DNA of 37,488 bases, from positions 1-37,488 of the forward strand of contig JAHZKW010000140.1 in the NCBI GenBank assembly GCA_022600175.1, written 5' to 3'. Under the pieces are notes generated by a model. It searched no databases. It was not told the origin of the DNA and was given only the letters and a program-made list of their open reading frames with translations. A program made the position numbers and the translations under genes. This DNA is from Campylobacterota bacterium. GTDB lineage: Bacteria; Campylobacterota; Campylobacteria; Campylobacterales; QNZT01. Of this stretch, positions 14,825-23,142 are shown piece after piece (the stretch's first letter is position 1; each line of letters begins with the position of its first letter).

Positions 14825-15703
14825 ATGAATATAGCACTATTTGGCGGGAGTTTTGATCCTCCCCATATTGGACATGAAGCAATCATACGTGAAGCTTTAC
14901 AAAATCTCGATATTGATACGCTTTTTGTAGTACCTACGTTTCTAAACCCTTTTAAAAAATCCTCTTTTGCGTCTGCAGAGAAACGTTACAAATGGATTCA
15001 AAAACTACTTCGCTCTTACCCTAAAGCAGAAGTATTGGATTTTGAAATCAAAAAAAACCGCCCAGTACCAACGATTGAAACAATCAAGTACCTTAAAAAA
15101 AAATATGATATTCATAAAATATATTTAATTATAGGTGCTGATAATCTGCCGCAGTTAAAAACATGGAAATCTTTTGATACACTAAGCCAACTTGTTGAGT
15201 TTATTATTGCGACACGAGAGGGTGAAAAAATCCCCGAAAACTTGCAAAAATTGGACATTCATGTTACTATCAGCTCCACAAAATTAAGAGAAGAGCTGAA
15301 ACAGGAGTTTTTACCTAAATCTATTGCTGATGAGGTGATAACTTATTATGAGATAAGGAGAAAAATGGATAAGAGAGTTGAAAAGATTATTGAAATCTTA
15401 GATGAGAAAAAAGCAGATAATATTCAGCTTTTTGATATGAGAGAAAAAGATTATTTTGTAGATGATGTGATCATCGCAACTACACTTGGTGAAAAACATG
15501 GTGCTGCCCTTTTAGACTACCTGAAACAAGGATTAAAAGTTGAAGGGGAAAGTTACTTTCATGTAGAACCAAGTGATGAGTGGACGGTACTTGATATGGG
15601 CGACATTCTCATCCATCTTATGACACCTGAATATCGCGCAAAATATAATATTGAAGAGTTTCTATCACACCGCCAAAAAGAGCAGAGTATCCAACCAGAA
15701 TAA
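14825..15703 (+). CDS. nadD-rsfS: Nicotinate-nucleotide adenylyltransferase fused to ribosomal silencing factor RsfS
   Basis: A single 292-codon frame joins two proteins. Residues 1-180 are a complete NadD: GGSFDPPHIGHE nucleotidyltransferase motif, PTFLNPFK, and ISSTKLRE at the end; it makes NaAD from nicotinate mononucleotide and ATP. Residues 181-292 are a complete RsfS/DUF143 (EKIIEILDEKKADNIQLFDMREK...VEPSDEWTVLDMGDILIHLMTPEYRAKYNIEEF), which binds ribosomal protein uL14 and blocks subunit joining. The internal ATG at 15365 has its own AAGGAG four bases upstream, so RsfS may also be made alone. In C. jejuni, as I recall, the two are neighbouring separate genes. Fusion by loss of the nadD stop is likely; a sequencing error is possible. 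Confidence 0.9.
   Translation: MNIALFGGSFDPPHIGHEAIIREALQNLDIDTLFVVPTFLNPFKKSSFASAEKRYKWIQKLLRSYPKAEVLDFEIKKNRPVPTIETIKYLKKKYDIHKIYLIIGADNLPQLKTWKSFDTLSQLVEFIIATREGEKIPENLQKLDIHVTISSTKLREELKQEFLPKSIADEVITYYEIRRKMDKRVEKIIEILDEKKADNIQLFDMREKDYFVDDVIIATTLGEKHGAALLDYLKQGLKVEGESYFHVEPSDEWTVLDMGDILIHLMTPEYRAKYNIEEFLSHRQKEQSIQPE
15357..15367 (+). promoter_or_regulatory. Internal ribosome site and ATG for stand-alone RsfS
   Basis: AGATAAGGAG-AAAA-ATG occurs inside the fused frame exactly at the NadD/RsfS boundary. It is a stronger ribosome site than the one in front of nadD, which supports internal initiation. Confidence 0.55.
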
Positions 15704-16746: not shown

Positions 16747-17853
16747 TTAAATTTTATTTTCCATAAATGCCGTTAAAATCTTAGTATTAAGATCTATACG
16801 CCCAAAATAGCTTTTTTTACTAGCACGTTCCGCTATCGTATGATCTCCATCACCAAAAGGTCCAAATCCATCTAGTGTAATCACCCCTTGGCTTGCCATA
16901 TGATTTGCATCACTCACACCACCACGCTGTTCAACAGTAATCTTTTCACCTGTTAAAGCTTCTATCTTTTCTAAAAATGCTTCTTGCTTAACATTAGGAG
17001 CCATGACATCACGTTGGATACCACCACTAAGTTTTGCCACGCTTCCCTCTACATGTGAGGCTTGGCAAATCGATTCAAACCCCCGCAACACCCTATCTCG
17101 CTCATCACTGTTGGTATATCTTAGCTCTACCGAAAGTTTAGCATGTGGAGAGATGGTATTAGCACCAATACCCCCTTCAACTTTCCCCACATTGACCGTA
17201 GTACCTTTTTCTAGATCCGTTAAAGCTGTGAGTGCAATTAATTTATGGGCTGCTTCTAAATTGGCATTGATACCTTTGATATACTCATTACCTGCATGTG
17301 ATGCTTTGCCCTCAATATCGATAAAAAAAGTACCTACCCCTTTACGACCATTGACTACTTCTCCATTTTTCCCTGCTGCTTCATAAACAAGACAATAGTC
17401 ATAATTTTTTGCTAAAGAGAGTGTTAAATCTTTTGAGTCATCACTACCTGTCTCTTCATCACTCACCAGTAGCATGTCAATATCTCTAATTTCACCAAAT
17501 ATTTGATGTAGATTACGCAAAGATTCTAAGGCAACCATATTTCCACCTTTCATATCACACACGCCTGGACCATAAATCCACTCATCATCATCACGATAGT
17601 GTTCAAAACTCATAGGAGGAAAAACCGTATCTAAATGCCCCAAAAGCAATACTTTTTTGCCCTCTGTCTGCTTTGAGGTAAAAAGTAGATGATTACCTAC
17701 TTCATCACGCTTATGTACTTCACAAGAAAATCCCAATGCTTGCATCCATTTTGTAAAAATTTTTCCATTTTCATCTACACCCAATTTGTTCTTTGTGTAA
17801 GAATTTAGATCAATTAACCTTTTCAATTCTGAAAAGTCGTAATTTTTAATCAT
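16747..17853 (-). CDS. M20-family metallopeptidase (carboxypeptidase G2-like)
   Basis: 368 aa. The two-zinc M20 residues are visible: His73/Asp75 in LGHLDTVFP, Asp100 in GPGVCDMKGG, the catalytic Glu pair at 133-134 in SDEETGSDD, Glu158 in VYEAAGK and a C-terminal His in GDGDHTIAE. A dimerisation domain lies between (GKASHAGNEYIKGINANLEA). The closest characterised relative by motif is glutamate carboxypeptidase (CPG2), which removes C-terminal Glu. Unlike secreted CPG2 there is no signal peptide, so it should act in the cytoplasm. It is divergent, with a short gap, from the ATP-grasp pair. Substrate unknown; other amide-bond or dipeptide substrates are possible. Confidence 0.82.
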   Translation of the reverse strand: MIKNYDFSELKRLIDLNSYTKNKLGVDENGKIFTKWMQALGFSCEVHKRDEVGNHLLFTSKQTEGKKVLLLGHLDTVFPPMSFEHYRDDDEWIYGPGVCDMKGGNMVALESLRNLHQIFGEIRDIDMLLVSDEETGSDDSKDLTLSLAKNYDYCLVYEAAGKNGEVVNGRKGVGTFFIDIEGKASHAGNEYIKGINANLEAAHKLIALTALTDLEKGTTVNVGKVEGGIGANTISPHAKLSVELRYTNSDERDRVLRGFESICQASHVEGSVAKLSGGIQRDVMAPNVKQEAFLEKIEALTGEKITVEQRGGVSDANHMASQGVITLDGFGPFGDGDHTIAERASKKSYFGRIDLNTKILTAFMENKI

Positions 17854-17920: not shown

Positions 17921-18829
17921 ATGTCTACGCATAAAATCGGCATGTGGATGTATCAAAATAGCGGTGGTGAACAGATCCAAAAAAAGATAATTGACAAACT
18001 TCGAGAAAGAGATATTATCACGACTACAGATCTCAACCTCAGAAATGCAATTGCTAAAAATGGTTCCATTATCTGTAATGATACGGCAATGGAAAAGCTC
18101 GATCTCTTTTTTAGCTATAACGCAGGTCAACAAACCCAATACCAAGTTTACCTCTACGAAACACTTGATAAATTTATTCCTATTATTAATAACTACGATG
18201 CATTTGCACTCACTGAAGATAAGTTTAAAACCTCACATCGTCTTAGACACCACGGTGTCTTGACCCCAGAGTTTAAACTCTGTCATAGAGATGATGTAGA
18301 CAAACTCAAACATGTACTTCGTGAGTGGGGTGGAAAAATTGTCTACAAGCCTACTGATGGCTGGGGAGGTATGGGACTTGTCAAAATCGAAAACGAAGCA
18401 GCACTTGATATGTTACTACCATTTTTAAACCAAACAGATATCCGCTATTTTTATGTTGAAAAATTTGTCAACTATGACAATACCGATTTTAGAGTAGACA
18501 TCGTCAATGGAGAATTTGTCGCATGTTATGGACGAAAAGCGGCAAAAGATAGCTGGAAAACAAATATCACAAGTGGTGGAAGTATCTTTTTAAGAGAGCC
18601 AAATGACAAACTGGTTGAGATCTCTAAAAAAGCAGCAAAAGTAACAGGTCTTGAGATCGCAGGGGTAGATCTCATTTATGATCAAGAACAAGAGGAGTAT
18701 GTAGTATTAGAAGTAAACGGTATACCAGCATTTGCAACACCAGAACAAGAGGCTATGGGACTTAATTTTAACGATAAAAAAATTGATTTAATTGTCGATT
18801 TAATAGACAACACAGTAAAGGGCAAATAA
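17921..18829 (+). CDS. ATP-grasp ligase, RimK/glutathione-synthetase-like (first of a pair)
   Basis: 302 aa after moving the start from 17867 to the ATG with AAAGGAA upstream (MSTHKIGMW); the longer track start passes through the promoter. ATP-grasp features: nucleotide Lys in GKIVYKPTDGWGGMGLVKI, the hinge FYVEKFVN, DFRVDIVNGEFVACYGRKA, the glycine loop TNITSGGSIF, and metal ligands in GVDLIYDQEQEEYVVLEVNGIPAF (Glu and Asn both present). Such enzymes couple ATP to acyl-phosphate formation and ligate a carboxylate to an amine, often an amino acid to a peptide C-terminus. The gene is two bases upstream of the second ligase. Substrates unknown. Confidence 0.83.
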   Translation: MSTHKIGMWMYQNSGGEQIQKKIIDKLRERDIITTTDLNLRNAIAKNGSIICNDTAMEKLDLFFSYNAGQQTQYQVYLYETLDKFIPIINNYDAFALTEDKFKTSHRLRHHGVLTPEFKLCHRDDVDKLKHVLREWGGKIVYKPTDGWGGMGLVKIENEAALDMLLPFLNQTDIRYFYVEKFVNYDNTDFRVDIVNGEFVACYGRKAAKDSWKTNITSGGSIFLREPNDKLVEISKKAAKVTGLEIAGVDLIYDQEQEEYVVLEVNGIPAFATPEQEAMGLNFNDKKIDLIVDLIDNTVKGK

Positions 18830-18831
18830 TT

Positions 18832-20262
18832 ATGGGTAAAAAGAAGCAAAAAAAACTACCAAAACTAGGTTTTCTCTATCTTGACTATGTATTGAGATTT
18901 TTTGATAAGTCAAACTTCAAAGGTTGGCCAGATAAAATTGAAGTGGTAACTTACCACTGGAAAAATGACAAAGCACGTTTTATCAAAGAGGTCAAACGTA
19001 AAAAAATTGACATCTTGATCGGAAATATCCCGGCTACAGCCTATGAAACTTTTAGAGAGATCGCACGAGAACTGCCAAATATCCAATTTGTACCTTCACT
19101 AGATACACAGTTTTCAAATAAATCTAAAGAGAATGTTACCCGTTTTTGTTGGAAGTATAATATTCCTGTACCTCAAACCTATATCTTTTATGATAGAGAA
19201 AAAGGGGATGCGTTTATCCAAAATACAGAGTTTCCAAAAATTGTTAAAAAAAGTTATGGGCCCTCAAACTATGGAGGATACTTTGTCCATAAAGTATCCT
19301 CCAAACAAGAGGCAACAAACCTCTTTAAAACTAAAAAATATCATCCGATGTATATGCAGGACTTTGTCCCAATGGCAGCAGATGTGCGCGTCATGTTAAT
19401 TGGACATAAACCTGTCTGTGCATTTTGGAGAAGACCACCTGAGGGTGAATGGCTCACAAACACCAGCCAAGGTGGCTCTATGGATTATATGGATGTCCCT
19501 GTTGAACTTTTAGAGTTAGCAGTCAAAGTAAGTAAAGCAGCCAATGCAGAGTATTGGGCTTGTGATATTGCTGTGGGTGTTGATGGAGAGTATCGTATTT
19601 TAGAATGTGCAACCGCATTTGCAGCATTTCCATATATTAGAGATTGGATTGCACAATACTTGATGTGGAAATTTAGTGATGGAAGATTTAAAAAACCAAA
19701 CATCCCACTCTTTAACTGGGAAGAACTGGGAAAAATTGATAGTTCACTCTTACGTACAATGCGACATATTGCATTTGGTACATTCTCACCAAGTTATGAT
19801 GGTGCCTACTATATGAACAAAAAAATTGCTGTTGATGAACAAAAGAGTATCTTTGACGTCGATAGCCAATTTCCAATGTTAAATACAAGAGAACGAGATG
19901 AAGAAGAGTGGCCAAGTGAAAAATGGAATTATCAAGATAAATATGCACTCAAAAATCTCAAGAGTATGGAAGTAGAAAATAACCAAGCACTACAAGATGG
20001 TGATGAATCTGCACTCAATGCAGAGGAGATCAGTGATGAAGAGATGTTTTCATTTCTCTCAACCTCTACTAAAGGATTTGGTAAGAAAAAAGCAGCAAAA
20101 GCACTTGAGACATATGGTAAAGAGAAACTTGTACATATGCTGGAAAATGAACCTGATCAACTCTTAGACGTTAAGGGGATTAAAGAAAAAACTATGCAAA
20201 AAATGGTAGATGCATGGGGAACTTTCAAACAAATTTTAAAAGGCATTCCACCAAGTCAATAG
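18832..20262 (+). CDS. ATP-grasp protein with C-terminal helix-hairpin-helix region
   Basis: 476 aa. Residues about 1-310 form an ATP-grasp enzyme: FPKIVKKSYGPSNYGGYFV, YMQDFVPMAADVRVMLIGHKPVCAFWRR, NTSQGGSMDY and WACDIAVGVDGEYRILECATAF. In the last motif the usual E-x-N metal triad reads ECA, so one Mg ligand (Asn) is missing; activity may be altered or use another residue. After an acidic linker, GFGKKKAAKALETYGKEKLVHMLENEPDQLLDVKGIKEKTMQKMVDAW (about 418-465) reads like paired helix-hairpin-helix motifs of RecD2/UvrC type, which bind nucleic acid or mediate contacts. This fusion is unusual for ATP-grasp ligases. No signal peptide, so cytoplasmic. Confidence 0.8.
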   Translation: MGKKKQKKLPKLGFLYLDYVLRFFDKSNFKGWPDKIEVVTYHWKNDKARFIKEVKRKKIDILIGNIPATAYETFREIARELPNIQFVPSLDTQFSNKSKENVTRFCWKYNIPVPQTYIFYDREKGDAFIQNTEFPKIVKKSYGPSNYGGYFVHKVSSKQEATNLFKTKKYHPMYMQDFVPMAADVRVMLIGHKPVCAFWRRPPEGEWLTNTSQGGSMDYMDVPVELLELAVKVSKAANAEYWACDIAVGVDGEYRILECATAFAAFPYIRDWIAQYLMWKFSDGRFKKPNIPLFNWEELGKIDSSLLRTMRHIAFGTFSPSYDGAYYMNKKIAVDEQKSIFDVDSQFPMLNTRERDEEEWPSEKWNYQDKYALKNLKSMEVENNQALQDGDESALNAEEISDEEMFSFLSTSTKGFGKKKAAKALETYGKEKLVHMLENEPDQLLDVKGIKEKTMQKMVDAWGTFKQILKGIPPSQ

Positions 20263-20341: not shown

Positions 20342-20524
20342 ATGTGTATGCAACATCAAAGACCACCAAAACCTCAGAAAAAAAGTTTTAGAACAAAAGA
20401 TAGCAAAGCGCATATCCCTTACGACAGTTGTGTAATGGAGCATGGAGACCCTGACTTTCAAGACTTAAGAGTAAGAAAAGTTACTAAAAAGAAACTTAAT
20501 TTTTTTGAAAAGTTATTTTCCTAA
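20342..20524 (+). CDS. 60-aa basic protein of unknown function
   Basis: MCMQHQRPPKPQKKSFRTKDSKAHI... to ...KKKLNFFEKLFS. An AAAGGA ribosome site lies at good distance before the ATG, and the frame sits between the ATP-grasp pair and the M14 carboxypeptidase on the same strand. It is rich in Lys, Arg and Pro with two Cys, and has no membrane helix or signal peptide. I do not recognise it. Its position makes it a conceivable partner or substrate of the neighbouring peptide-modifying enzymes, but nothing in the sequence proves that. Confidence 0.55.
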   Translation: MCMQHQRPPKPQKKSFRTKDSKAHIPYDSCVMEHGDPDFQDLRVRKVTKKKLNFFEKLFS

Positions 20525-20532
20525 ATTTATGC

Positions 20533-20568: not shown

Positions 20569-23142
20569 ATGAAGCAACAATATAAATCATATCAAGAGAC
20601 CGTTGATTTTCTCAAAGAGTGTGTCAGAAACTATCCAAATATCATTACATTACAAAATATTGGTACTACTTGGGAAGAGCGAGAAATTGTACTTGCCACC
20701 ATTACAATCAATGTGGAACAAGCAGATCTCAAACCTGCACTTCTTTATACTGGTACAGTGCATGCACGCGAATGGATCGGTAATGAACTAGGTGTCGAAT
20801 TTATTGATCATCTTTTAAAAAACCATCAAAGTGATCCTCGTATCACTTCGGCATTGACTAAAAATACCTTATACATCGTCCCTTGTCTAAACCCTGATGG
20901 ATTTGAGTACTCCCGTACCCACTTCTCTTTTTGGCGTAAAAATAGACGAAACAACAAAAATGGTACCTATGGTGTTGATCTCAACAGAAATTTTAGTGTC
21001 GGTTATGTGAAAACTACAGATACAAGCTCTAACGTCTACAGCGGACCTGAGCCATTTTCAGAGCCTGAAACAAGAGCGATCAAAGAGTTTGTTGATACAC
21101 ATGAGAATATCACTGTAGCACTGGACTATCATTCACAAGGCAATGTCTTTTTCCCTGCACATAAGTTTAACCATGAGGCAGAAGTCAATGGTACTGACCT
21201 CAATGTCCTCTGTGCTAACATGAACTATGAGATCAAAAAAGTCAGTGGTCGAAAATATGGAATTCATCGTGGAAAACCACCTACTAAACTTATCAGCGGT
21301 AGTGGACGTGAATACTACTACTCTAAAGGGATCATCTCAGCAGTAGTAGAAGTAGGAACACGTAATATTCCTGACTATATGCAAAATATGAAAGAGAGTA
21401 TCAATGAAAATATTCCTGCTCTCTTACATGCTTTAGGAGAGGCACAAAACTACTCATTTTTAGCCCCAAAACGTGTAGAGAACTTTCATTTGGAAGCTTC
21501 TGATTCTCAAAGTATATCACTTGCATGGGATGGTGTTGAAGGTGGTGAAAACATCTTCTATAAGATTTATAAAAATACCCAAGAAAAGCAAGCCTGTAAT
21601 GAAGCAAACCTCATTGCGACAACCAAAAATAAACACTTTACCGATACCGATCTTAAAAGCGGAAAACTCTACTTCTACTATATTAGAGCTGTAGATATGA
21701 TCAGTAATATCGAATCTCCCTATGCACCAAAGGTACGTGCAAAAACAGCACTTTTAAATGATGAGTTTTCACGTGTTATCTTTCCAACACCTAACAATAT
21801 AGGCTATATTGCAGAAAAAACAATCGAACAAAATAGAGAACATTTTGGAACAAACTCACTATTTGTAGGTGTTAATGAGAATAAAGGGATCAGTTATGCG
21901 GTAATGGAATTTTCACTAGAAAACATCCCTGAAAATGCCATCATACAAGAGGCAAATATCTCACTCTATCCTATGAATCGTGTCAATGCAAAGATAGAAA
22001 AATATGGAGAGTGGTCACTTTCATTTATTGATCAACAGACCATTGGTGAGCTTTATGACTTTTCACAAATTCATAATGCTCAGATCTTAGGAACATTGGG
22101 AGAGAGTATCCCCTCAGAGAAGCTAACACAAGGAATTTGGAGTCATTGGCACTTTAACGCATTTGAGGCTAAACTTTTACAATCACAGATTCACCAAAAA
22201 AGTGTTGTATTTCGGATGCAAGGTCCAACAAAGCTTCCTGTAGGACGTAACTCACAAATGATGATGTTTGATATTGGATATGGTAAATTTGGAGGAGGTA
22301 TACACTATCGCCCTTCATTAAATATCAAATATACAGTTCCATCCACGCAAATAGAGATCAAACCAAATACAACCAGTACGATTTCTACTTCAGAAATTCA
22401 ACATGATACACTCATCTGTGGTTTTGATAAAAATGGTTGTAAAGAGTATGGCTATATGGAGTTTGACTTAAGCTCTCTACCCAATCCTGATGAAACGGTA
22501 GTGACACACGCTTATATCGAAATCTCAAATAAGAAAAAACCAACCACCAAACAAGATATGCGTTACAATATAGAGTTTATCGATGTCGACAATCATACTT
22601 TTGAAGATATCAAAAATCGTGAACGCATAGAGTTTATAGGTTATGAGGTGAGTAAAGACGATTTAATAAAAAACCGTACGCATCACTTTTTGTTTGATAG
22701 CTTTAGTAGACAAGAGCTTGAAGAGAGTCATAAACAACATAAACCCGTCTCCTTCATCGTCAAAGCAACCTCCTCTTCTATTCCTAAAAATCACCAAATT
22801 GAGTGGGATGAAAAAGAGGCAAAACTAATCATCCAATATATCAAACGACGAAAATATGGTGTGCCAACCATCTCTAATCTCCAGATAAATGTTGAAAAGG
22901 GAATGGTTAAACTTGCATGGGAAAATCCAAAAGATGAGGCACATGTCGGATCTTTTGTCGTTAGAAATCGCTTTCATCCACCACAAAACCCTTATGACGG
23001 TGTCAAACTCTACGCAGGTCCTGATAACTACACTTATGATAACTATGGCTCCACTAAAGTGGATAAATACTATGCTGTATTTACCTATGATGATGTACCA
23101 AACTATAGTGAACCAATAGTCATTGAGTACAAGGTCAAATAA
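20569..23142 (+). CDS. M14 zinc carboxypeptidase with FN3 and DNRLRE-like domains
   Basis: 857 aa. Residues about 1-290 are a complete M14 catalytic domain: zinc ligands His65/Glu68 (VHAREW) and His188 (LDYHSQG), substrate residues in NPDGFEYSR...WRKNRR and GVDLNRNF, Tyr in GREYYY and catalytic Glu261 (VVEVGTR). It removes C-terminal residues from peptides. An FN3-like domain follows (about 300-395), then two beta-rich segments whose FSLENIPENAIIQEANISLYP and FDLSSLPNPDETVVTHAYIEI patterns recall DNRLRE/CBM96 domains, then a last FN3-like domain (765-857). Such appendages are usually extracellular, yet no signal peptide is visible. GGAG precedes the ATG closely. Confidence 0.85.
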   Translation: MKQQYKSYQETVDFLKECVRNYPNIITLQNIGTTWEEREIVLATITINVEQADLKPALLYTGTVHAREWIGNELGVEFIDHLLKNHQSDPRITSALTKNTLYIVPCLNPDGFEYSRTHFSFWRKNRRNNKNGTYGVDLNRNFSVGYVKTTDTSSNVYSGPEPFSEPETRAIKEFVDTHENITVALDYHSQGNVFFPAHKFNHEAEVNGTDLNVLCANMNYEIKKVSGRKYGIHRGKPPTKLISGSGREYYYSKGIISAVVEVGTRNIPDYMQNMKESINENIPALLHALGEAQNYSFLAPKRVENFHLEASDSQSISLAWDGVEGGENIFYKIYKNTQEKQACNEANLIATTKNKHFTDTDLKSGKLYFYYIRAVDMISNIESPYAPKVRAKTALLNDEFSRVIFPTPNNIGYIAEKTIEQNREHFGTNSLFVGVNENKGISYAVMEFSLENIPENAIIQEANISLYPMNRVNAKIEKYGEWSLSFIDQQTIGELYDFSQIHNAQILGTLGESIPSEKLTQGIWSHWHFNAFEAKLLQSQIHQKSVVFRMQGPTKLPVGRNSQMMMFDIGYGKFGGGIHYRPSLNIKYTVPSTQIEIKPNTTSTISTSEIQHDTLICGFDKNGCKEYGYMEFDLSSLPNPDETVVTHAYIEISNKKKPTTKQDMRYNIEFIDVDNHTFEDIKNRERIEFIGYEVSKDDLIKNRTHHFLFDSFSRQELEESHKQHKPVSFIVKATSSSIPKNHQIEWDEKEAKLIIQYIKRRKYGVPTISNLQINVEKGMVKLAWENPKDEAHVGSFVVRNRFHPPQNPYDGVKLYAGPDNYTYDNYGSTKVDKYYAVFTYDDVPNYSEPIVIEYKVK

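Follow-up and report, generated by a model that had tools for sequence, protein, structure and literature searches.

ATP-grasp 2 (G2), encoded in the 37,488-nucleotide stretch of Campylobacterota DNA that was analysed here (the window), consisted of a RimK/LysX-type ligase core and a helix-hairpin-helix (HhH) tail that was exchanged or absent in other lineages, carried the motif E-C-A at the position of the metal-binding E-x-N, and belonged to a four-gene cassette together with a second ATP-grasp ligase (ATP-grasp 1; G1) and two carboxypeptidases of the M20 and M14 families (Table 1). The reading that we prefer, with a probability of a little under one half (0.48), is that G1 and G2 are paired RimK-like glutamyl ligases served by dedicated deglutamylating peptidases, and that the HhH tails would bring G2 to a target associated with nucleic acid.

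Table 1. Features of the G1-G2 cassette in the window
Feature	Position	Strand	Basis
M20 carboxypeptidase, glutamate-carboxypeptidase type	16747..17853	-	PF01546; 1cg2 2e-29
ATP-grasp 1 (G1), RimK/ArgX/MptN-type ligase, intact E-V-N	17921..18829	+	PF08443 1.2e-16; MptN 4.2e-40
ATP-grasp 2 (G2) ORF, 476 aa	18832-20262	+	ORF call
G2 RimK/LysX-type ligase core, residues 1-318	18832..19785	+	PF08443, LysX profile, Foldseek
G2 Asp245, predicted first metal carboxylate	19564..19566	+	Invariant (n=78); aligned with G1 Asp
G2 E258-C259-A260, altered E-x-N metal motif	19603..19611	+	Alignment of relatives; hhalign against G1
G2 linker, conserved EEWPSEKWNYQD motif (tail-A clade), low predicted structure	19786..20031	+	Alignment; pLDDT
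RecD2-type (HhH)2 tail, residues about 401-470	20032..20241	+	NCBIfam RecD2; tail profile; pLDDT
Small ORF between G2 and M14, 60 codons, MCMQHQRPPKPQKKSFRTKD...	20343-20525		Found in two near relatives
M14 zinc carboxypeptidase with FN3 and DNRLRE domains	20569..23142	+	PF00246 1.9e-58; DNRLRE 1.4e-9
M14 pocket Arg247	21307-21309	+	Invariant

The core of G2 showed clear homology with the Pfam RimK family PF08443 (1.9e-15; 57.4 bits, with the cutoff at 21), which was also matched by 34/34 relatives, and with LysX (3vpd) in a profile comparison (1.1e-11); the best Foldseek matches were ArgX (top), RimK, and LysX. The score with TIGR00768 (RimK family alpha-L-glutamate ligase), 80.1 bits over residues 106-258, was below the cutoff of 143.4. 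The relatives were sampled from Campylobacterota and part of Pseudomonadota. In 78 sequences, 113 residues of the core were invariant, and D184, R186, R200, N210, D245, and E258, which are expected at the active site (ATP/metal binding), were all invariant; conservation of the core between distant relatives was approximately the same as that for G1. The AlphaFold models of G2 were of moderate quality (mean pLDDT, 62-63; pTM, 0.44 and 0.59). On the basis of its homologies, G2 is probably an ATP-grasp ligase that attaches amino acids, with glutamate as the candidate.

Asn at the metal site is conserved in most ATP-grasp enzymes. Its loss from G2, which the initial annotation had read from the single sequence, proved to be real and a trait of the whole family: E-C-A was kept in 85/85 relatives (84 with LECATAFAAFPY and one with LECASAFAAFPY), whereas E-[VIL]-N-G was retained in 61 of the 62 G1 relatives (E-V-N at 18710-18718 in the window). 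When G2 and G1 were aligned by hhalign (profile-profile; the alignment is short in this region), ECATAF was placed opposite EVNGIPAF with a two-residue gap, and Asn therefore seems to have been deleted along with its neighbour rather than substituted, which is a reading and not a proof. Since the similarity of G2 to other ATP-grasp families ended near residue 248-262, the loss of Asn rests on profile alignment. The AlphaFold model, with modest confidence at this site, showed a strand (254-261) leading directly into a helix from residue 262.

Because the core residues were invariant in the 78 sequences, only Asn was missing from G2, and its weak or specialised activity could fit this pattern of conservation. 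A broken enzyme is unlikely, considering E-C-A in all 85 relatives and the other intact family residues. On the other hand, since the metal Asn was absent from every member, catalysis by G2 is unproven, and the invariant E-C-A would allow the need for this residue to be probed directly. The proposal that G2 is a regulatory or pseudo-enzyme partner of the first ligase was correct with regard to the partnership (51 genomes contained both), and a decayed pseudo-enzyme disagreed with the invariant active-site residues listed above. A regulatory subunit with no or very weak catalytic activity, which would place G1 on the target with the HhH tail as the anchor, would explain why E-C-A is found throughout G2 while E-x-N is kept in G1, and also the near-perfect co-occurrence of the two genes; however, we consider it improbable because the other residues expected to bind ATP and metal were invariant, conservation of the core was close to that of G1, and the gene in Sulfurimonas had moved away from that of G1 (see below).

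The fusion of the ATP-grasp core with an HhH region was confirmed by the PF08443 match, the RecD2-type tail, and the AlphaFold helices. With respect to the proposed RecD2/UvrC-like character of this tail (tail A), RecD2 and HHH_5 were the matches found, and "UvrC-like" is a looser description. The NCBIfam RecD2 model matched residues 401-467 of G2 at 1.6e-6, and a profile of tail A matched the N-terminal HhH found in bona fide RecD2 helicases of Campylobacterota at 61-64 bits (about 1e-20). The structure prediction proposed for the C-terminal part gave helices with pLDDT of about 88-90, preceded by values below 50 across residues 290-394; the linker with the EEWPSEKWNYQD motif was also found without HhH in relatives G802 and G850. 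The SF1B helicase motor was absent from the G2 ORF in Pfam and NCBIfam searches, which found ATP-grasp as the only enzymatic domain. A tail recently copied from a RecD2 of the host was rejected: no RecD2 match over the cutoff was detected in the search of the window genome, and the tail was, therefore, not a recent local copy.

In the window protein alone, the tail was below the Pfam cutoff of HHH_5 (3.7e-4; 21.3 bits against 27), as might be expected if the resemblance to HhH were accidental and the C-terminal part of G2 a mere helical linker. This explanation is highly improbable, however, because 23/34 relatives matched HHH_5 at E<=1e-3 (best, 2.2e-11), the tail of L091 was over the cutoff (42.1 bits), the tail profile matched the HhH of RecD2 at the level given above, and members with the second type of tail, described below, matched HHH_3 at 3.8e-27.

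In a profile search across 397 Campylobacterota genomes, about two-fifths of the G2 family aligned only to profile residue about 330-410 and then ended differently. The differently ending members that were retrieved carried two ComEA-type HHH_3 units, or one in shortened forms (tail B; E down to the value just given). The tree of the cores separated tail-A from tail-B members with support of 100/100 (midpoint root). The profile of tail A gave only 11-24 bits on tail B, as against 61-64 on RecD2, and a common origin of the two tails was rejected, other than an ancient relationship at the level of the HhH clan. The most divergent Pseudomonadota relatives (G537, G529, and G453), from one order, consisted of the core alone, while another order of Pseudomonadota had tail A in 6/8 and the EEWP linker without HhH in 2/8. 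Tail A was missing from three Campylobacterota members, and no HhH was detected in any downstream forward frame of L056, L062, and L090. The short tail of L065 was rejected as a true loss; HhH was still encoded in another frame after a frameshift. The HhH tail is, thus, a swappable module (RecD2-type, ComEA-type HHH_3, or none, depending on the lineage), and the simplest history, with the order of events resting on the midpoint root, would start from a tail-less core and include two gains of HhH and several losses.

Since the same core carried a different class of HhH in each of two clades, the suggested link with nucleic-acid-bound substrates gained strength as a prediction. On the other hand, the tail-less Pseudomonadota and the secondary losses in Campylobacterota indicated that nucleic-acid binding would not be essential to the core reaction, and HhH domains are also able to bind proteins.

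Two aspects were missed by the initial annotation: the exchangeable and sometimes absent tail, and the membership of the M20 and M14 peptidases in the same system. Apart from Sulfurimonas, almost every complete Campylobacterota locus contained the cassette (M20, G1, G2, and M14), and the same set was present in Photobacterium sp. DA100 and four other Pseudomonadota, and partly visible in shorter loci; in G453, the M14 gene was located at the opposite end of a fragmentary contig. The M20 gene was divergent in the window and on the same strand as the rest of the cassette in many relatives, while G1/G2 and G2/M14 each overlapped by four bases in Photobacterium sp. DA100. ATG at 17921 is the likely true start of G1, whose best NCBIfam scores were with the MptN, RimK, and LysX models, and whose structure matches in the PDB were ArgX and RimK. 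Among Campylobacterota, G1 and G2 occurred together in 51 genomes, with one containing only G2, two only G1, and 343 neither (Fisher 9e-61, uncorrected for shared ancestry). This co-occurrence (51 of the 54 genomes with either gene) also held where the two genes were unlinked: in Sulfurimonas, M20, G1, and M14 were kept together and G2 was located elsewhere, 27-32 bases behind efp.

The EF-P gene was directly upstream of G2 in 12 Sulfurimonas-type loci (L052, L053, L057, L058, L060, L061, L063, L067, L069, L091, L092, and L104), at a distance of 27-31 bases in the 11 intact cases among them. In L104 (G058), G2 remained behind efp only as remnants with stop codons (a pseudogene), and this genome had no G1 match. 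EF-P is a factor that is modified in other bacteria. In some genomes of the Sulfurimonas family, genes that were identified by eye as similar to rimM, trmD, and rplS, which serve ribosome maturation or encode a ribosomal protein, were located at about 0.1-1.2 kb from the M20-G1-M14 block (L123, L124, and L125) or the whole cassette (L071 and L077). In Sulfurimonas, the neighbouring efp and trmD-rplS genes are a lead pointing to translation.

A comparison of the neighbourhoods of the loci revealed no DNA- or RNA-related gene, and no transporter, carrier, or tailoring gene, as a constant neighbour of the cassette. The DNA repair gene nth, cited previously in support of a DNA role, followed the cassette in no family but that of the window and was rejected both as such support and as a functional partner. 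The small ORF between G2 and M14 had counterparts in two near relatives (identities of 77% and 47%) and was not found in the other loci, and was rejected as a carrier for this reason. An anti-phage defence system was also rejected, with no PADLOC family matching the four cassette proteins at E<=0.1, as was an origin from phages or plasmids: phages gave only weak ATP-grasp matches, and the one strong plasmid match was a 2.1-Mb Photobacterium replicon.

The closest solved structure to the M20 protein, whose metal ligands were conserved in 59 sequences, was the glutamate-releasing carboxypeptidase G2. In M14, which had its catalytic residues, the zinc ligands and Arg247 were invariant in 58/58, and Arg247 was located opposite Asp255 of carboxypeptidase B (alignment E of 0.6, weak alone, within a clear M14 match). 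A basic residue at 255 confers acidic specificity, as demonstrated with a paralogue of carboxypeptidase O, which cleaves a Glu-Glu substrate and leaves Phe-Ala and Phe-Phe substrates uncut (PMC9925722). The ligases of the RimK/MptN/LysX type, an M20 nearest to carboxypeptidase G2, and the invariant Arg of M14 at the position equivalent to 255 shared a glutamate theme, and glutamate is probably the added residue, judging from family and this one pocket residue. The FN3 and DNRLRE domains of M14 are usual on exported proteins, yet this protein started with the peptidase domain and had no obvious signal peptide.

A small-molecule or peptide pathway is possible, albeit rather doubtful, in which the two ligases act successively on a glutamyl metabolite or cofactor tail, M20 and M14 trim or recycle the products, and HhH serves only for oligomerisation or partner binding. 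The best score of G1 was with MptN, an enzyme that adds glutamate to a pterin, carboxypeptidase G2 removes glutamate from folates, so that an M20 nearest to this enzyme would fit, and tail-less G2 members exist; linked ATP-grasp ligases often perform successive ligations in peptide-derived metabolites (PMC4431377). However, it is difficult to see why the same core should have recruited two different HhH classes for a soluble metabolite, and the cassette had none of the constant transporter, carrier, or tailoring neighbours of such a pathway.

We prefer the glutamyl ligase pair with a nucleic-acid-associated target, which is favoured by the repeated recruitment of different HhH modules. The four genes would operate as an amino-acid tagging and untagging cassette in a manner similar to RimK/RimB: G1 and G2 would activate a carboxylate with ATP and form an amide bond on one shared target, probably with glutamate. 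G1, with its complete metal site, would be an ordinary ligase, and G2 its partner, active but specialised, with a reshaped metal loop; the HhH tail would, in most lineages, localise G2 to a target on DNA or RNA (the ribosome, for instance), while M14 and M20 would trim, remove, or recycle the added residues.

The known targets of amino-acid-adding ATP-grasp ligases include cofactors, peptides, carrier proteins, and ribosomal protein S6. The ATP-grasp ligases of the LysX/ArgX type, which act with LysW, are also paired with an M20-family hydrolase, LysK, and were the nearest to G2 in sequence (LysX) and fold (ArgX); however, the cassette had no constant small carrier protein and included M14 in addition, and LysX/ArgX, to our knowledge, have no HhH tails and retain E-x-N. 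The N-terminal HhH of RecD2 was similar to tail A, and G2 differed from RecD2 in having no helicase motor. In RimK/RimB (RimABK), which is involved in the glutamylation of ribosomal S6, a RimK-type ATP-grasp ligase is paired with a glutamate-removing peptidase (PMC11957791). This combination of a ligase and a removing peptidase, together with RimK among the top Foldseek structures for G2, makes RimK with RimB the closest known working analogue by comparison. On the other hand, the cassette contained two ligases, an HhH tail, and E-C-A for E-x-N, and its peptidases were M20 and M14, with no retropepsin-like protease of the RimB type among its four genes. Aravind and co-workers described operons in which two distinct ATP-grasp ligases act one after the other (PMC4431377); neither a peptidase nor HhH was mentioned there.

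No published description of the cassette, nor of an ATP-grasp enzyme paired with a zinc carboxypeptidase, was found in the open-licence literature, so that an earlier mention elsewhere is possible, and the combination of ATP-grasp with helix-hairpin-helix appeared there only in a proteome study of another organism. If the preferred reading is true, reversible amino-acid tagging would be extended toward nucleic-acid-bound targets in Campylobacterota and some Pseudomonadota. A tentative version, for which we see a limited likelihood, is reversible glutamylation aimed at nucleic acid itself or at a factor bound to DNA, RNA, or the ribosome, through two recruited HhH modules (RecD2- and ComEA-type) and with an E-C-A site dispensing with Asn.

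In Nitratiruptor sp. SB155-2, the "ATP-grasp domain-containing protein" NIS_RS04835, which may be G1 or G2, was induced by cadmium and copper with log2 fold changes of 1.03 and 1.29, respectively (PMC10092412). Elsewhere in the window (14825-15703), a NadD-like nucleotidyltransferase and the RsfS ribosomal silencing factor were fused in one ORF of 292 aa; they also formed a single ORF in L034, L035, and L066, and two ORFs in L031, L033, L036, and L037.
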